The notes under the pieces: model-generated
What the model was told of the DNA's origin: nothing
Databases searched by the model: none
The model's input: the letters and a program-made list of their open reading frames with translations, nothing else
In this document: positions 13,464-36,509 of the stretch, piece after piece
Layout: each line of letters starts with the position of its first letter
Position numbering within the stretch: the stretch's first letter is position 1
Position numbers and translations under genes: made by a program
Assembly: GCA_000307935.1 (NCBI GenBank)
Contig: AMWX01000002.1
Coordinates: forward strand, 186,001-250,000
Length of the DNA stretch: 64,000 bases
From: SAR86 cluster bacterium SAR86E
GTDB lineage: Bacteria; Pseudomonadota; Gammaproteobacteria; Magnimaribacterales; D2472
Direction of reading: 5' to 3'

Positions 13464-14204
13464 TTATCTGCTTCTCAACTTCATTAATAGGCGCAAAATT
13501 TCAATATATAACCATACCAATGTAACCATTAATGAAAATGCACCATACCATTCCATATATTTAGGCAATCCTTGCTCAGCACCTTCTTCAATAAAATCAA
13601 AATCTAAAACAAGATTTAGCGCAGCTATACCAACCACAAATAATGAGAAGCCTATTCCAAATAATCCATTAGAGTGTATGAAACCAATACCAGAGCCAAA
13701 GAAAGACATTATAAAACTAATTAAATAAAGCAGGGCTATTCCCATTGTTGCTGAAAATATCATTAGTCTAAAATTTTCAGTAGGTTTAATAATTCCACTC
13801 TTATAACAGAATAGTAATGATGCAAGAATTCCAAAAGTAAGCCCAATAGCTTGTATACCTATTCCAGGATATTGCATTTCAGCAAAAACCGTTATTCCTC
13901 CAAGAGCAATACCTTCAAATCCTGCATAAAATGGTGCAGTAGCTCCTGCTTTAGAAGGATTTCTAAAAATTGTTACAAAGGCAAGAATGGTACCAATAAT
14001 CAAACCTGGCAAAGTAAGAGCAGGAAAATTCCATCCAATAAATGCTCCTCCAAAACAGAGAGCTAGCAAGATAGCCGTTTTGTTAACAGCCCCATCTAAT
14101 GTCATGCGTTCAGATTGGGGTATTGCACCAGTAGAATCAAAGTTTTTTGTAAATGCTGGATTTCCAGATCGACCGAAGGTATTTAAAGCAGAATGTTTCG
14201 ACAT
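13464..14204 (-). CDS. Bax inhibitor-1/YccA family membrane protein
   Basis: A 246-residue protein with seven probable membrane segments after a soluble N-terminus of about 45 residues. It belongs to the BI-1/YccA superfamily: residues near 37-70 (LDGAVNKTAILLALC), an acidic FDFIEEGAEQGLPKYMEWYGAF loop late in the protein, and the C-terminal segment LVWLYIEILRLL. In the family the late acidic residues sense pH and calcium flux, and YccA of E. coli restrains the FtsH protease. Ribosome site GGAG lies 9 bases before ATG. First gene of a three-gene operon. Confidence 0.85.
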   Translation of the reverse strand: MSKHSALNTFGRSGNPAFTKNFDSTGAIPQSERMTLDGAVNKTAILLALCFGGAFIGWNFPALTLPGLIIGTILAFVTIFRNPSKAGATAPFYAGFEGIALGGITVFAEMQYPGIGIQAIGLTFGILASLLFCYKSGIIKPTENFRLMIFSATMGIALLYLISFIMSFFGSGIGFIHSNGLFGIGFSLFVVGIAALNLVLDFDFIEEGAEQGLPKYMEWYGAFSLMVTLVWLYIEILRLLMKLRSR

Positions 14205-14277: not shown

Positions 14278-15315
14278 CTAAAGTGAATTTATCCAATTTG
14301 TTATGAGTTTAATGCCAGCTTCATCAGCTAAAGCTCTGCCAGATTCAGGCATCATTATTCCTGGATCAAGCGATTTCATTCTGTACAACATTATTGATTT
14401 ATCAGGATTCCCGGGCACAATTGAGTATTGAAGATTTCCGCTCGCTCTTCCGGCTGCAACTGGCTTTTTATATATTCCCAGCTGTTCTTTATTATTTTCG
14501 GCATAGTTTAAATACAAGCCTGTAGTATCTGCTGAACCACCCGCAATATGGCAATGTCCACAATTAATATCCAAATAAGCACGCGCTCGATCATTTAGTT
14601 CAGCATTGATATCAGCATAACTAGATATAAATTGTGTTTTAATCTTCTCATTAATCCAGCCGAGCGCTGCCCAATGTAGCAGTTGATTCATTTCACCTGA
14701 AGCATATTCAACAGTTTTATTCATGTTTCTTGGTTTTGGACCAATCGGAGTCATCACTTTATTAGCTTGATGACACTCTTTACATTGATTTTGGTTAGGA
14801 GCTCGATATCTAATATCAATTATTTCTCCATCTGAACTTATAAAAGTCGTTAAAATTGTAGCTCCTGCAATTGATCGCTTAGCATCGGTTTGATCTTCAT
14901 TCCATACATAGCTCAGAGCTTTCCAACCCTCATCGGTATTAATCAGTAAACGTGTTTCTAATAATTGCTTAGGCAAAGGACCATTTTGATTAAGATATGC
15001 AAATGTTTTTATAAGGGTTGAGCCAACTGGAAAAATAAAAACTTTATTTTTGACATAGCCTAATTTTTCTCCCTCAGGAATATATACGAATCTCAGTTTA
15101 TCTGTGTGATCAGAAAATAGAGGACTTACAAGTGAATAGGGATGAACTCCTTTGACAGGAATTTGATTGCGCAAGTCAGAAAAAAAACCGAATTCAGATA
15201 GATGTAGTGGGAATTTTGTAAAGTTATTTTTTGAAATATTCTGAGCTGTTATTTCAATACAGCTTAATAACAAAATAAAAAAATAAAATTTTTTAAAAAT
15301 TTTCATTAAATTCAA
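14278..15315 (-). CDS. SO2930-family diheme cytochrome c
   Basis: A 345-residue periplasmic protein with an N-terminal hydrophobic signal. Two c-type heme sites are visible: CKECH near residue 190 and CGHCH near residue 254. Between and before them lie the family features VSPLFSDHTDKLRFVYIP and PVGSTLIKTF; the C-terminal part (IMLYRMKSLDPGIMMP) looks like a cytochrome heme-ligand region. The founding members sit next to a parallel beta-helix protein, as here (TIGR03806/TIGR03805-type pair, from memory). No enzymatic role is known; electron transfer or peroxidase-like chemistry is possible. Last gene of the three-gene operon, overlapping the previous gene by 23 bases. Confidence 0.83.
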   Translation of the reverse strand: MNLMKIFKKFYFFILLLSCIEITAQNISKNNFTKFPLHLSEFGFFSDLRNQIPVKGVHPYSLVSPLFSDHTDKLRFVYIPEGEKLGYVKNKVFIFPVGSTLIKTFAYLNQNGPLPKQLLETRLLINTDEGWKALSYVWNEDQTDAKRSIAGATILTTFISSDGEIIDIRYRAPNQNQCKECHQANKVMTPIGPKPRNMNKTVEYASGEMNQLLHWAALGWINEKIKTQFISSYADINAELNDRARAYLDINCGHCHIAGGSADTTGLYLNYAENNKEQLGIYKKPVAAGRASGNLQYSIVPGNPDKSIMLYRMKSLDPGIMMPESGRALADEAGIKLITNWINSL

Positions 15316-16531
15316 CTTTTGCCAGTGGTGTCACCACTCCATCAAACTCGGTAATATCGAGAGTTGCTGGCTCAAGAAATGGAAGCATGAAGCCTATTGG
15401 CTTAATTGCAAGCACTGTTGCATCTCCATTGTTTGTAATAATTATTTTTTCTTCATCGGGTTGGCCTAAGATGATCTGGGAGAGAGGCACTAGTCCATCC
15501 CAAAAAATATCTGGCATGTTTCCATTAGATAGATCATAAAGAATTTGCGCTAGATCACCTTTGCTGGTGTCAGGATTATATCCAGTGTGCCCAAATATAT
15601 TGCCATGTATCTGTATTGATTTCGGGTGAGGGTAGTAAGTCTTATCATCTGTTTCATTAGCGTATGTTACAACTGCAATATTCACAGTATCATTATCACC
15701 AATTTCATTATTAAAAATTTCTACATCAGAGTTTGCCTGAATAATGATCCCGGTACCTCTTGGAACTTCACCTACAATATTTCCTTCAGGTGCAAAGTTA
15801 TCTGTATTGTTTCCAATCGAACGATTGTTAAATACCCTGACATGATGACCACCCTGTTGTGGCAGTCCAGGTAAATCAAAAACTAAGATACCGCCTGTAT
15901 TGTTAGTGGCAAGATTATTATATACATCTGCAAAATATGAATTTTCGATCTCAATTCCAGCCACGTTATATTCAGCTCTACTATTCCGCACAATAATATT
16001 CGTTGATTGACCAACATAAATTCCTGCATCAGAGGCTCCAATAGCAACGCAACCATCAATGAGAACATTGGTAGATTCAACCGGATATAAGCCATAGGCT
16101 CCATTTTCTGGCTTGGGTCCATCAGTCCATTCTGTTTTTACTCTTAAAAATTTTATGTTAGTGACGCCCTTAACTTTAATTGCGTCTCCCTTTGCATTTT
16201 GGACTGAAAAGTCTTGAAGAGTGACGTTATTAGAAGTAACACTTAGTCCCTGAGCACCACTTTGTTGATTACTAAAGTCAAGGATTGTCTGGTCCATTCC
16301 TTCACCCTCAATTTGCACATTAGGCACGTCCAATGAAAGTGAATCTTCAAGTTTAAATATTCCGGATGTTAACCTGATAACGTCACCAGGTTCAGCGAGG
16401 ATCAGAGCTTCTTGAATCTCCTGGTAGGCATTTTCAGTAGGCTCAATAATTTGAACAGATGCATATAAGCATCCACTACAAAGTAGAGATACAACTAAAT
16501 ATTGCTTAGATAGCTTGAGGAATTTCACCAA
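15293..16531 (-). CDS. exported right-handed parallel beta-helix protein
   Basis: A 412-residue protein with a signal sequence (ends near LYAS, about residue 25) and then repeated beta-helix rungs. These show recurring N-x-x-x-x-N ladders such as NIIVRNSRAEYN, DVYNNLATNNTGG and VEIFNNEIGDNDT between residues about 60 and 300. Such folds occur in carbohydrate-active enzymes and surface proteins, but this branch pairs with SO2930 cytochromes and has no assigned activity. Start codons are weak: TTG at 16531 or GTG at 16528. Both lie inside the end of the upstream gene, so translation is probably coupled. Confidence 0.8.
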   Translation of the reverse strand: MVKFLKLSKQYLVVSLLCSGCLYASVQIIEPTENAYQEIQEALILAEPGDVIRLTSGIFKLEDSLSLDVPNVQIEGEGMDQTILDFSNQQSGAQGLSVTSNNVTLQDFSVQNAKGDAIKVKGVTNIKFLRVKTEWTDGPKPENGAYGLYPVESTNVLIDGCVAIGASDAGIYVGQSTNIIVRNSRAEYNVAGIEIENSYFADVYNNLATNNTGGILVFDLPGLPQQGGHHVRVFNNRSIGNNTDNFAPEGNIVGEVPRGTGIIIQANSDVEIFNNEIGDNDTVNIAVVTYANETDDKTYYPHPKSIQIHGNIFGHTGYNPDTSKGDLAQILYDLSNGNMPDIFWDGLVPLSQIILGQPDEEKIIITNNGDATVLAIKPIGFMLPFLEPATLDITEFDGVVTPLAKVEFNENF

Positions 16532-17612
16532 ATTTTTCTAAAGGCTTTTCAAGTTCATCCCAGTCACACTCAAAATCATCTGGAGCATTTTCATACTCTA
16601 GTAATCCTAGGGCTTCAAATTTTGGTCTTACTTTATCAGTTAGCAACCCAATTCTAGAAAGGTTTGGCATGATTCTTGAAAATAAGAAATTTCTAAATGT
16701 TGTATTAGCAGAAGTGGACAATGCAAATTCTCTTGCCTCATCTTCTGACATTTTTAAGTATTTTTGCATGGCTTTAGTGTTAATTAACCTTTCTCTTGAA
16801 ATTACACAAGCCTCATATGCAAATTCAGCTCTATCTTCAATTTCTTCAGGACTTAGTGTTTTGATGAAATCCTCTAAATAGTTGATTCCAAATGTTACAT
16901 GTCTGGCTTCATCCCTAATAACATAATGAAGTAATTGCGTAAGCAATGGATCTTTTGACAGGCCCTTAAGCATTTGAAAAGCAGCCAGAGCAAGCCCCTC
17001 AATAACAATTTGCATTCCAATGAACTTAAGGTCCCATCTCTCATCGGTTAGGATTTTATCCAAAAGGAGTTTTAAATTTTTGTTGATAGGGTAGTGCATA
17101 CCTATTTTTTCTTGAAGATATCTATTAAAAACTTCAACATGCCTAGCTTCATCGAAAGTCTGCGAAGCGGCGTATAATTTTGCATTATATGTAGGTGCAC
17201 ACGAGGTTAATTGAGATGCTACAAGCAGTGCTCCTTGTTCTCCATGAAGAAATTGACTTAATAGCTCTGCTGCATCATGACGATCAAACTCAATCTTTTC
17301 TTCTTCACTAAGGCTTTCATATGCTTCTAAAGTTTCATGAGGCAACTCTTCATCAGCCTGCACGATTCTCTCATTAGCTGGATGATTGTAATCCCAATTG
17401 AGATCTATTGAACCATTCCAATTTAGCTCTTTACCAAGTTCATAAAGTTTCTTTATCCTGTTGTCTGCTACAGTGTAATCCCAGTTATAAGCTCCTGTTA
17501 ATGGAGTATTAAATATTTCCGCTACATCTTCGACTTGCTCTGAAGTTAGATTTAACTCATTTTCAAAATATAATATATCTTTTGGCGGCCCTTCAGCTTT
17601 TGTAATTTTCAT
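16506..17612 (-). CDS. ferritin-like diiron protein, first gene of cytochrome operon
   Basis: A 368-residue, largely helical protein. Two E-x-x-H pairs (DEARHVEVF near residue 165 and DEARHVTFG near 242) plus single glutamates in HGEQGALL and VIEGLALAAF supply the six ligands of a carboxylate-bridged diiron site. This is the R2/acyl-ACP-desaturase/AurF type. Such enzymes activate O2 for hydroxylation, desaturation or N-oxygenation. It has no signal peptide, whereas its two operon partners are exported. The start ATG 17612 is preceded by TGAGGT and by a 21-bp palindrome overlapping the promoter. The substrate is unknown. Confidence 0.85.
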   Translation of the reverse strand: MKITKAEGPPKDILYFENELNLTSEQVEDVAEIFNTPLTGAYNWDYTVADNRIKKLYELGKELNWNGSIDLNWDYNHPANERIVQADEELPHETLEAYESLSEEEKIEFDRHDAAELLSQFLHGEQGALLVASQLTSCAPTYNAKLYAASQTFDEARHVEVFNRYLQEKIGMHYPINKNLKLLLDKILTDERWDLKFIGMQIVIEGLALAAFQMLKGLSKDPLLTQLLHYVIRDEARHVTFGINYLEDFIKTLSPEEIEDRAEFAYEACVISRERLINTKAMQKYLKMSEDEAREFALSTSANTTFRNFLFSRIMPNLSRIGLLTDKVRPKFEALGLLEYENAPDDFECDWDELEKPLEKFGEIPQAI

Positions 17613-17632
17613 ATTTACCTCAAAATCTTAAA

Positions 17633-17653
17633 AATGTTTACAGTGTAAACATT
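17633..17653. promoter_or_regulatory. perfect 21-bp palindromic operator of ferritin-like operon
   Basis: AATGTTTAC-AGT-GTAAACATT has perfect 9-base arms around a 3-base centre. On the minus strand a perfect TATAAT -10 (17658-17663) lies four bases upstream of it, so transcription would begin inside the palindrome. This geometry fits a dimeric repressor, for example of the TetR type (inference). A degenerate copy occurs at 36489-36509. Confidence 0.78.
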
Positions 17654-17672
17654 AGTTATTATAAGCTTTTTT

Positions 17673-19442
17673 TTAGCCATTGAATAGATCGGTTAATTTT
17701 TCGAGAAGGGCCTCTGCCAATTCTTCCGCTCTATTAATGGTTATCGACTTCTCATAGTATTTAGTAACATCATGCCCAATGCCAATTGCTAGAAGCTCAA
17801 CATTACTTTGTGTTTCAATAGATGAAATGATTTGTCGTAAGTGATTATCTAAAAAAAGGCTATGATTTGTTGAAAGTGTGCTGTCATCAACAGGCGCACC
17901 ATCAGATATTACAATCAAAATTTTCCTTTCTTCATTGCGTTTAATTAATCTTTGATGAGCCCAAGCCAAAGCTTCACCATCTACATTTTCTTTTAAAAGA
18001 CCCTCCCTCAACATTATCCCAAAGCTTTTTCTTGCTTTTCTAAAACTGTCATCTGCTGATTTAAAAATAATATGCCTAAGGTCATTCAATCGACCAGGGT
18101 TTGATGGACTCCCTTGATTGACCCAAGCTTTTCTTGAGTCTCCTCCTTTCCAATGTTTTGAAGTAAAGCCTAGTAGTTCTGTTTTGACGTAACATCTTTC
18201 TAAGGTGCTCCCAATAATATCTCCACATATAGCAGCAAGGGTCATAGAACGCCCCCTCATAGAACCAGAACTATCTACTAATAAAGAAACTACTGTATCT
18301 TTAAATTTACTTTCGCTTTCTTGTTTAAAACTTAATGAATCACCCGGCTTTGTTATCACTCTATGAAGCTGAGCCGTATCTAATAAGCCCTCCTCTAGGT
18401 TGAAGTTCCAACTTCTATTTTGCTGAGCTTGAAGAAGGCGCTGCAATCTATTAGCTAATTTTCCTATGGTGGTTTGGTGTGGCGCTATTAATTGATCAAG
18501 CTGTAATCTTAATCTATTAGCTTCTTCTGGAGTAGCCAGCTCAATAGCATGAATGATTTCATCAAACTGAGTGGTAAAAATTCTGTAATCTTCATGAGCT
18601 GTTGAATCAAGATCTTCACGAAAATTTCTAGTTAGATCTATTTCTTCATCAATTGAGGTAGAGTCAATTGGAACTTGTGATTCCTCAAGCATATCATTCT
18701 GCTCATCTTCTTGACCCTCAGCTTGAGCTTCTATTACTTGATCGTCATTGTTTTGATCAGGGTCTTCATGTTGACTGTCTGAGCTTTGCTCTTCTTCTGG
18801 TGAAGGTTCATCCTGCTGTGATTCATTATCTCCTTGAGTCTCAGGTTCATGCATTAAATCTAGGTCCTTCATTAGTTCTAGAGCAATCGACTGGAAATCT
18901 TGTTGAGAATTTTTGACCGCAAGGAGCTTTAATCCTGCGTTGTCAATTTTTACAGGGATAGATGCAAGAAAAGCATTTACAGTTGACTCACTTTCTTTGG
19001 ATAGAGTTTCGCCATTAAGTTTTTTTAACCATAAATTAGCAGCCAAAGGATTTAAGGCTGGAATTTTATTATCCATACCTTTCTTTGCTTGCGTTTCTAA
19101 ATATGCATTGAGATTTTTCTTGGCGCCAGGGAAAGCGTCTCCACCAAGAATTTCAACTCTTGATAACTCAAGCTCCATGAAAAAGTCTCTAGCATTTTTT
19201 GGCATTTTGAGAGTTGGATATTCTTTATGATGCGTGTGCCAAAAAATTTGAAAATCTGACTCACCTCTCCATGAATCAACATGAGAAGATGATCGAGGTG
19301 GATAATGTAAAGCAATTTCAGACTGAGAGGGAGGCCTGCTTGAGGCTTGTGATGAACTGTTTAGATCTGATTGACCAGATATCGCTTTAGCGGTTGCAAG
19401 GACAGCTTGCTTAAATTCCTCCCTATTTTTAACCCAACTCAT
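17673..19442 (-). CDS. cobT: CobT-like cobaltochelatase subunit with VWA domain
   Basis: A 589-residue protein. The N-terminal third is CobT-like. The middle (about residues 210-270) is a highly acidic glutamine/glutamate/aspartate-rich linker. The C-terminal von Willebrand A domain carries a MIDAS motif (DSSGSMRG). CobT and CobS form the ATP-driven chaperone of aerobic cobaltochelatase CobN, which inserts cobalt in B12 synthesis. No CobN is in the window. ATG 19442 is preferred over the TTG one codon earlier. It lies 3 bases after the cobS stop, so the two genes are co-transcribed. Confidence 0.85.
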
Positions 19443-19445
19443 CAA

Positions 19446-20429
19446 TTAGGTTTCTGGATTATGACTTTCTAGAAGATCTTCTCCAAAACACCTTTGAAAA
19501 TACTCAGCTACTATTGGTCTTTCTGCTTCATCACACTTATTAAGAAACGATAATCTAAATGAATGTTGAATGTCATTAAAAATAATATAGTTCTGAGCCC
19601 ATGTAATTACAGTTCTCGGAGACATTAATGATGATATATCATCATTTACAAAACCCTGTCTAGTTAAGTTGGCGAGCTGAATCATACTCTTAATAAGAGC
19701 TTTGTCCTTTGCTGCTTTTAGCTCAGGGACCTTACCAATGACAACATTGAGTTCGTGGGAGCCTTCAAGATAGTTCAGTGTTGACAATATGTGCCATCTA
19801 TCCATTTGCCCTTGATTAATTTGCTGAGTTCCATGATAAAGGCCTGTTACATCTCCCATGCCAACAGTGTTCGTCGTAGCAAAAAGTCTAAAACTTGAAT
19901 GAGGAGAGATTACTTGATTTTGATCAAGTAGAGTCAATTTACCTTCCACCTCAAGAATTCTTTGAATAACAAACATCACATCTGGTCTGCCAGCATCATA
20001 TTCATCAAAGACAATTGCAACTGGATTTTGAATGGACCAAGGTAATATCCCTTCTTTAAATTCAGTAATCTGTTTTCCATCCTTTAAAACAATTGCATCT
20101 TTTCCAAGAAGATCAATTCTACTGATATGACTGTCTAGATTGATTCGAACACAGGGCCAATTCAATCGCGCCGCAACTTGTTCAATGTGAGTAGATTTTC
20201 CAGTGCCGTGATAGCCTTGAATCATAACCCTGCGGTCATGTTCAAACCCAGCTAAAATTGCAAGAGTAGTGTCTCTATCAAAGATATAGGTATTATCTAT
20301 AGTTGGAACCCATTCTGTCTTTTCTTTAAAACCTTTGACCTCAAGATCAGATTCAATGCCAAAAGTTTTTTTAACATTAAATTTTTGATCAGGCTTTTCG
20401 GGCAGGGATATTCTTTCAGAATTAATCAT
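19446..20429 (-). CDS. cobS: CobS-like AAA+ cobaltochelatase subunit
   Basis: A 327-residue AAA+ ATPase: Walker A GYHGTGKST near residue 73, Walker B VAIVFDEYDAG near 138 and sensor-1 LFATTNT near 185. The N-terminus resembles CobS (a short basic leader, then VPTIDNTYIFD). With CobT it forms the ring ATPase that drives CobN. A closely related MoxR-type role with a VWA partner on another target is possible because CobN is not seen nearby. Divergent from tesB across 113 bases that must hold both promoters. Confidence 0.88.
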   Translation of the reverse strand: MINSERISLPEKPDQKFNVKKTFGIESDLEVKGFKEKTEWVPTIDNTYIFDRDTTLAILAGFEHDRRVMIQGYHGTGKSTHIEQVAARLNWPCVRINLDSHISRIDLLGKDAIVLKDGKQITEFKEGILPWSIQNPVAIVFDEYDAGRPDVMFVIQRILEVEGKLTLLDQNQVISPHSSFRLFATTNTVGMGDVTGLYHGTQQINQGQMDRWHILSTLNYLEGSHELNVVIGKVPELKAAKDKALIKSMIQLANLTRQGFVNDDISSLMSPRTVITWAQNYIIFNDIQHSFRLSFLNKCDEAERPIVAEYFQRCFGEDLLESHNPET

Positions 20430-36488: not shown

Positions 36489-36509
36489 AATGTTTACACT
36501 GCATACATT
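36489..36509. promoter_or_regulatory. degenerate palindromic operator at tolC promoter
   Basis: AATGTTTAC-ACT-GCATACATT is a 21-base dyad with 7 of 9 arm positions complementary. Its left arm is identical to that of the 17633-17653 palindrome. It lies over the start point and the -10 (36507-36512) of the tolC promoter on the minus strand, a position expected for a repressor. Confidence 0.6.

Follow-up and report, generated by a model that had tools for sequence, protein, structure and literature searches.

The closest described counterparts of the genes considered here are the NorQ-NorD pair and the aerobic cobaltochelatase CobNST. According to two reports, NorQD inserts the non-haem iron of cNOR, and the authors propose that the VWA protein contacts the target while the AAA+ ring twists it (PMC13036017; PMC9976466). 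For ChlI/ChlD motors lacking a large subunit, a third report states that the function is unexplored (PMC9227772). The DNA analysed is a stretch of 64,000 nucleotides from SAR86 cluster bacterium SAR86E (assembly GCA_000307935.1, contig AMWX01000002.1, positions 186,001 to 250,000), hereafter the window, taken from a 1.4 Mb genome that is 87.8% complete in 13 contigs and belongs to an order with small genomes (0.7-1.8 Mb). On its minus strand, successive genes encode a CobS-like ATPase, a CobT-like protein, a diiron protein (DI), a beta-helix protein (BH) and a cytochrome c (CYT). It is CobS and CobT, encoded upstream, that stay with DI across genomes, and not BH and CYT.

The positions of DI, BH and CobT were compared across 150 genomes of the order, many of them incomplete (40 are at least 90% complete), with adjacency taken as a distance within 2.6 kb; coordinates were transcribed by hand from the match lists of the three proteins, and the counts of adjacency to DI, for CobT and BH alike, are lower bounds. 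DI has a match in 141 of these genomes and CobT in 110, and CobT adjoins DI in at least 107 of the latter (74 in family f1, 16 in f2 and 17 in f3). The three CobT-bearing genomes outside this count comprise one without a DI match (G078), one whose DI matches are unlisted (G132) and one with CobT at a contig end (G118). Where measured (40 loci in 37 genomes, with gene starts picked by a rule of our own), CobT and DI lie on the same strand and are separated by 15 to 138 nucleotides. Within the class, 7 of 141 genomes, among them the window's own, have a CobT match, so that CobT is an uncommon neighbour there. Outside the order, the gammaproteobacterium G194 has three DI copies, and its CobS-CobT genes diverge from one of them at a distance of about 530 nucleotides. 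A conserved gene link between motor and metalloenzyme, as in NorQD, is therefore found in at least 107 of 110 genomes and in G194, with DI as the presumed client. Among the titles and opening lines of abstracts listed from one open-access collection, none described a link between CobS-CobT and a diiron protein.

CobS (19446..20429, 327 amino acids, domains CobS_N and AAA_5) is the first gene of the conserved unit, and CobT (17673..19445, 590 amino acids, TIGR01651) follows contiguously, placing an AAA+ ATPase with intact Walker A (GYHGTGKS) and Walker B (IVFDE) motifs beside a VWA protein with an intact metal-ion-dependent adhesion site (MIDAS; DSSGS), as in NorQD. Both align nearly full-length with solved cobaltochelatase subunits: a CobS profile of 12 relatives scores 581 bits against solved CobS (9ujv) and 27 bits against NorQ (9qh4), and a CobT profile, likewise of 12 relatives, scores 760 bits against solved CobT (9uka), the match covering profile positions 3-578. 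In the predicted CobT structure (mean pLDDT 70.1, pTM 0.48), the N-terminal part is helical, confidence is low at about 201-290, and from residue 384 on strands alternate with helices, resembling a VWA domain; the model's confidence is insufficient for recognising a VWA finger in the AAA+ pore. CobS and CobT are thus full-length homologues of CobNST subunits, and the locus differs from CobNST in three respects. CobS scores 530.7 bits against TIGR01650 (equivalog cut-off 558.55) and CobT 560 bits against TIGR01651 (759.05), both below the level that identifies a cobaltochelatase subunit. A diiron gene stands beside the motor. The large subunit CobN (PF02514) was found in one of the 150 genomes, an f4 assembly that is 64% complete, in none of the 40 genomes at least 90% complete, and not in the window's own genome. 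Because CobN is lacking, a role of CobS-CobT as a B12 (corrin) chelatase is ruled out.

Members of the AurF family have an extra histidine ligand and arylamine N-oxygenase activity. DI (16506..17612, 368 amino acids), a cytosolic AurF/R2-like diiron protein, matches the AurF family PF11583 at 47.2 bits, above the gathering cut-off of 29.6. The diiron site described in the earlier note on this DNA, with two DEARH motifs and additional glutamates, is borne out: the extra residues are E125 and E205, and E125, E155, H158, E205, E235 and H238 are invariant in all 36 aligned DI sequences, down to 32% identity. This 4-Glu/2-His set, arranged as E, ExxH, E, ExxH, is presumed to supply the diiron ligands. 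The best solved-structure matches of the AlphaFold2 model of DI (mean pLDDT 81.7) are R2lox (E value 8e-5) and CmlI (4e-4), with TM-scores of about 0.4-0.5, which supports a dimetal oxidase fold and is silent on the substrate. DI would share this fold and the ligand set with the AurF/CmlI N-oxygenases, R2lox and R2, whereas its identity to the solved structures listed is at most 20%. The same genome carries a second copy, DI-B (G000:C8:156665-157729; L101 6666-7727), which is 60% identical and sits between the alanine racemase and CTP synthase genes; G091 (L096) has the same surroundings. As a hint to function these neighbours were set aside, being only housekeeping genes (DnaB, alanine racemase, CTP synthase, DAHP-synthase-like/KdsA and enolase). 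In G090, a tandem pair of diiron genes stands directly behind CobS-CobT (L089 6959-9153). In G032, the full DI match is immediately followed by a second, partial one, and BH is present only as a fragment; in G057 the CobT, DI and BH matches are all fragmentary; both cases may reflect decay or assembly error.

The observed gene content, synteny, motifs, near-absence of CobN and invariant metal site are the basis of a tentative proposal, held with somewhat less than even confidence: CobS, CobT and DI form a conserved unit in which a NorQ-NorD-like motor loads or activates the dimetal site of DI. We infer complex formation, the role of DI as client, metal loading and oxidase chemistry. CobS, as an AAA+ ring, and CobT, with its VWA part and MIDAS, would constitute an ATP-driven remodelling machine like NorQ-NorD. 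CobT would dock on DI, and CobS would pull or twist CobT so that the helical core of DI opens; two metal ions would then be loaded into DI, or a blocked site would be reset, and mature DI would use O2 to oxidise a small cytosolic substrate. The likeness to NorQ-NorD lies in the combination of an AAA+ ATPase with a MIDAS-bearing VWA partner encoded beside an iron enzyme, and in the N-terminal part and flexible stretch that precede the VWA part. The differences are that the motors here are of the CobS/CobT type, as the 27-bit match of the CobS profile to NorQ indicates, and that a soluble diiron protein would be the client. The CobS-CobT-DI unit would then add a further variant to the known AAA+/VWA maturation pairs, by a mechanism that is plausible. 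More doubtful is the extension that CobS-CobT pairs without CobN serve specifically to mature AurF/R2-like dimetal oxidases.

The earlier note had placed three genes, encoding a diiron protein, a beta-helix protein and a diheme cytochrome, on the minus strand of this region, and both their place and their families (PF11583, TIGR03805 and TIGR03806) are confirmed. BH (15293..16531, with a TTG or GTG start) is an exported parallel beta-helix protein that scores 417.3 bits against TIGR03805 (cut-off 141.5), and CYT (14278..15315) is an exported SO2930-family diheme cytochrome c with two CxxCH heme motifs (CKECH and CGHCH) that scores 355.5 bits against TIGR03806 (cut-off 313.3). Both curated cut-offs are passed and the genes adjoin. 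BH was considered as a lipoprotein and rejected: the window protein has no lipobox by a simple pattern, and some relatives outside the order have one. The overlap of 26 nucleotides reported between DI and BH is correct; that of 23 nucleotides between BH and CYT holds only with a CYT start at TTG 15315 and becomes 14 nucleotides with ATG 15306, which is the likelier start. The claim of a single operon also holds in part: locally the three genes do resemble an operon, and six genera keep this arrangement. The note's unit leaves out CobS and CobT, however, whose genes immediately precede DI in the same orientation.

The note's statement that the SO2930-type cytochrome and the beta-helix protein are a recurrent pair proved right: BH precedes CYT on the same strand in all 20 contexts fetched outside the order, which were picked from family hits, often with a 4-nucleotide overlap and in one case (L169) apparently as one fused frame. 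In an f2 genome (L088), another reading frame lies between the two, and weak members of either family also occur singly (L109, L113, L160 and L161). Among 83 neighbouring proteins scanned (of 113 called), TonB receptors (6) and AraC regulators (4) recur and no common theme was found. The BH-CYT pair of G194 is flanked by two genes that point towards it, one for a PQQ-dehydrogenase-like protein and one for a TonB receptor (L165 1699-6038). The window's BH and CYT are ordinary members of their families in the usual order; the locus differs in that the pair is fixed behind a diiron gene in six genera, whereas outside the order some pairs lie near TonB-dependent receptors. In the proposed reading, BH-CYT would be a periplasmic pair in its own right whose place behind DI became fixed in part of f1, where it probably shares the DI message.

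BH occurs in 96 of the 150 genomes and adjoins DI in at least 43 of these, all in 6 of the 20 genera of f1 (g1, 20 of 21; g4, 2 of 3; g6, 12 of 12; g8, 4 of 5; g9, 3 of 3; g10, 2 of 2). No adjacency was seen in the 50 BH-bearing genomes of g3, g5, g7, f2 and f3 among the matches listed. The 53 BH-bearing genomes not counted as adjacent include G028 (g4), where the contig ends inside BH so that BH adjoins DI there too, and G011 and G051, which have no DI match. In the window, CYT is followed by a gene for a Bax-inhibitor-like membrane protein (13464..14204, minus strand), which marks the empty site in relatives without BH-CYT at this place: it stands directly after DI in L103, L085 and L087, one genome each of g3, g5 and g7. 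Trees were built from chosen rows (39 DI and 32 BH sequences), midpoint-rooted and with several long branches; in them, the adjacent type of BH forms one clade (support 88/85), g5 and g7 BH group with f2 (98/96), and the DI of the adjacent genera do not form one clade. The BH of g5 and g7 is of another lineage and at another genomic place. Because the adjacent-type BH forms one clade and the DI of the same genera does not, the BH-DI adjacency probably dates from early in f1, with later loss from some of its genera, and transfer is the alternative.

DI, together with BH-CYT where attached, may have a promoter of its own. In the gap between CobT and DI, a -10-like TATAAT (17658..17663, minus strand; a consensus match only) is followed by a perfect palindrome, TGTTTACASTGTAAACA (17635..17651), which lies between it and the DI start and, judged by the sequence and its relatives, is a probable operator. 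In relatives, the palindrome stands 8-32 nucleotides before the DI start, and in many of them the same or a similar TATAAT-like hexamer precedes it. Among 35 f1 genomes, many of one genus and hence not independent, the palindrome is present with 0-1 mismatch in 20 and with 2-3 mismatches in 5 more, and is absent in the other 10; it was found at none of four f2/f3 loci and before none of four other DI genes checked. With up to 2 mismatches allowed, three sites occur in the window's genome, and a reversed-pattern control gave no hits. One, a 2-mismatch copy (36491-36507), stands 12 nucleotides before an outer-membrane efflux gene (PF02321; 35147-36478, minus strand) and may hint at a shared regulator or be a chance copy: at 3 mismatches the chance expectation for the window is 0.28 sites, and two or more sites occurred in 6 of 100 shuffles. 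The third copy (G000:C1:325737-325753; L213) is flanked by a rhodanese-like gene and by the gene of a 90-amino-acid protein whose start resembles a signal sequence. No regulator gene follows any of the three sites in the stretches read, where no search aimed at regulators was made.

Several observations weigh against the proposed maturation of DI by CobS-CobT. In family f4 (20 genomes), DI has a match in 19, one of them weak, and CobT in none; the two f4 DI sequences aligned keep all six ligands. Because f4 retains DI with its ligands intact and without CobT, CobS-CobT is not strictly required for DI. DI-B has no CobS-CobT among its housekeeping neighbours, alphaproteobacterial and Zavarzinia DI genes (52-60% identity) have none in the 13-17 kb read, and in four of the five other gammaproteobacteria with CobT (G241, G199, G166 and G268, the fifth being G195) the 9-15 kb read around CobS-CobT contains no DI, the locus of G166 being close to the end of its contig. 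The probable promoter and operator of DI in part of f1 would also set it apart from the motor genes. Other genes likewise stay near the unit, namely TesB-like and PanK-like ones and, within f1, the one for the Bax-inhibitor-like protein, which indicates that gene order here is conservative. A serious rival reading, possible if on the unlikely side, is accordingly that CobS-CobT and DI have stayed side by side but do not act as chaperone and client, the motor maturing some other target and an old gene order persisting in streamlined genomes. It draws on the f4 genomes, the conservative surroundings and the four gammaproteobacteria; against it, G194 also has CobS-CobT and DI close together, with the genes oriented differently and no TesB- or PanK-like gene beside them.

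The scheme of the earlier note, in which a small molecule is oxidised by DI in the cytosol, exported, and then processed or attached outside by BH and CYT, now appears very improbable. It is consistent with the contiguity of the three genes in six genera, with the DI/BH overlap of 26-47 nucleotides (49 loci in 32 genomes where measurable, by our choice of starts) and with the single clade of adjacent-type BH. However, no adjacency was counted in the 53 other BH-bearing genomes, with the provisos given above for G028, G011 and G051; four genomes outside the order that have DI plus BH or CYT (G194, G755, G716 and G578) carry them on separate contigs or at a distance of 1.2 Mb; DI is retained in genomes without a BH match, as in genus f3g16 (6 of 6 genomes) and family f4; and the BH of g5 and g7 comes from another lineage and place. 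Overlap is weak functional evidence here because 18 of the 35 same-strand neighbour pairs in the window overlap by the open reading frame call. A shared three-gene pathway is thus weakened because the positions of DI and BH differ across the 150 genomes, and no finding favours a small molecule that is oxidised and then exported or attached. The note had itself suggested a co-occurrence search and had set rare adjacency of the diiron gene to the other two against its own scheme; across the 150 genomes and the four outside the order, this is largely what was found. Also improbable, if less so, is that DI acts on a tetrapyrrole, as the AcsF diiron cyclase does beside the Mg-chelatase motor in chlorophyll synthesis, or is an oxidase of an efflux or stress regulon. 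The palindrome copy before the efflux gene and a weak AcsF match of DI point that way, but a CobN/BchH-type subunit occurs in one of 150 genomes, the AcsF match reaches 15.6 bits against a cut-off of 192.5, and no regulator was found, none having been searched for.

Maturation of DI by CobS-CobT would have consequences beyond this locus. Diiron enzymes are usually thought to self-assemble from free Fe(II). If the proposal is true, they would gain an ATP-driven loading or repair step and join the clients of AAA+/VWA metal insertion, and an orphan chelatase motor would gain a function. The comparison shifts attention away from a three-gene pathway, and the locus, through a link kept in at least 107 of 110 CobT-bearing genomes and in one lineage outside the order, names a specific candidate client for a motor without a large subunit.

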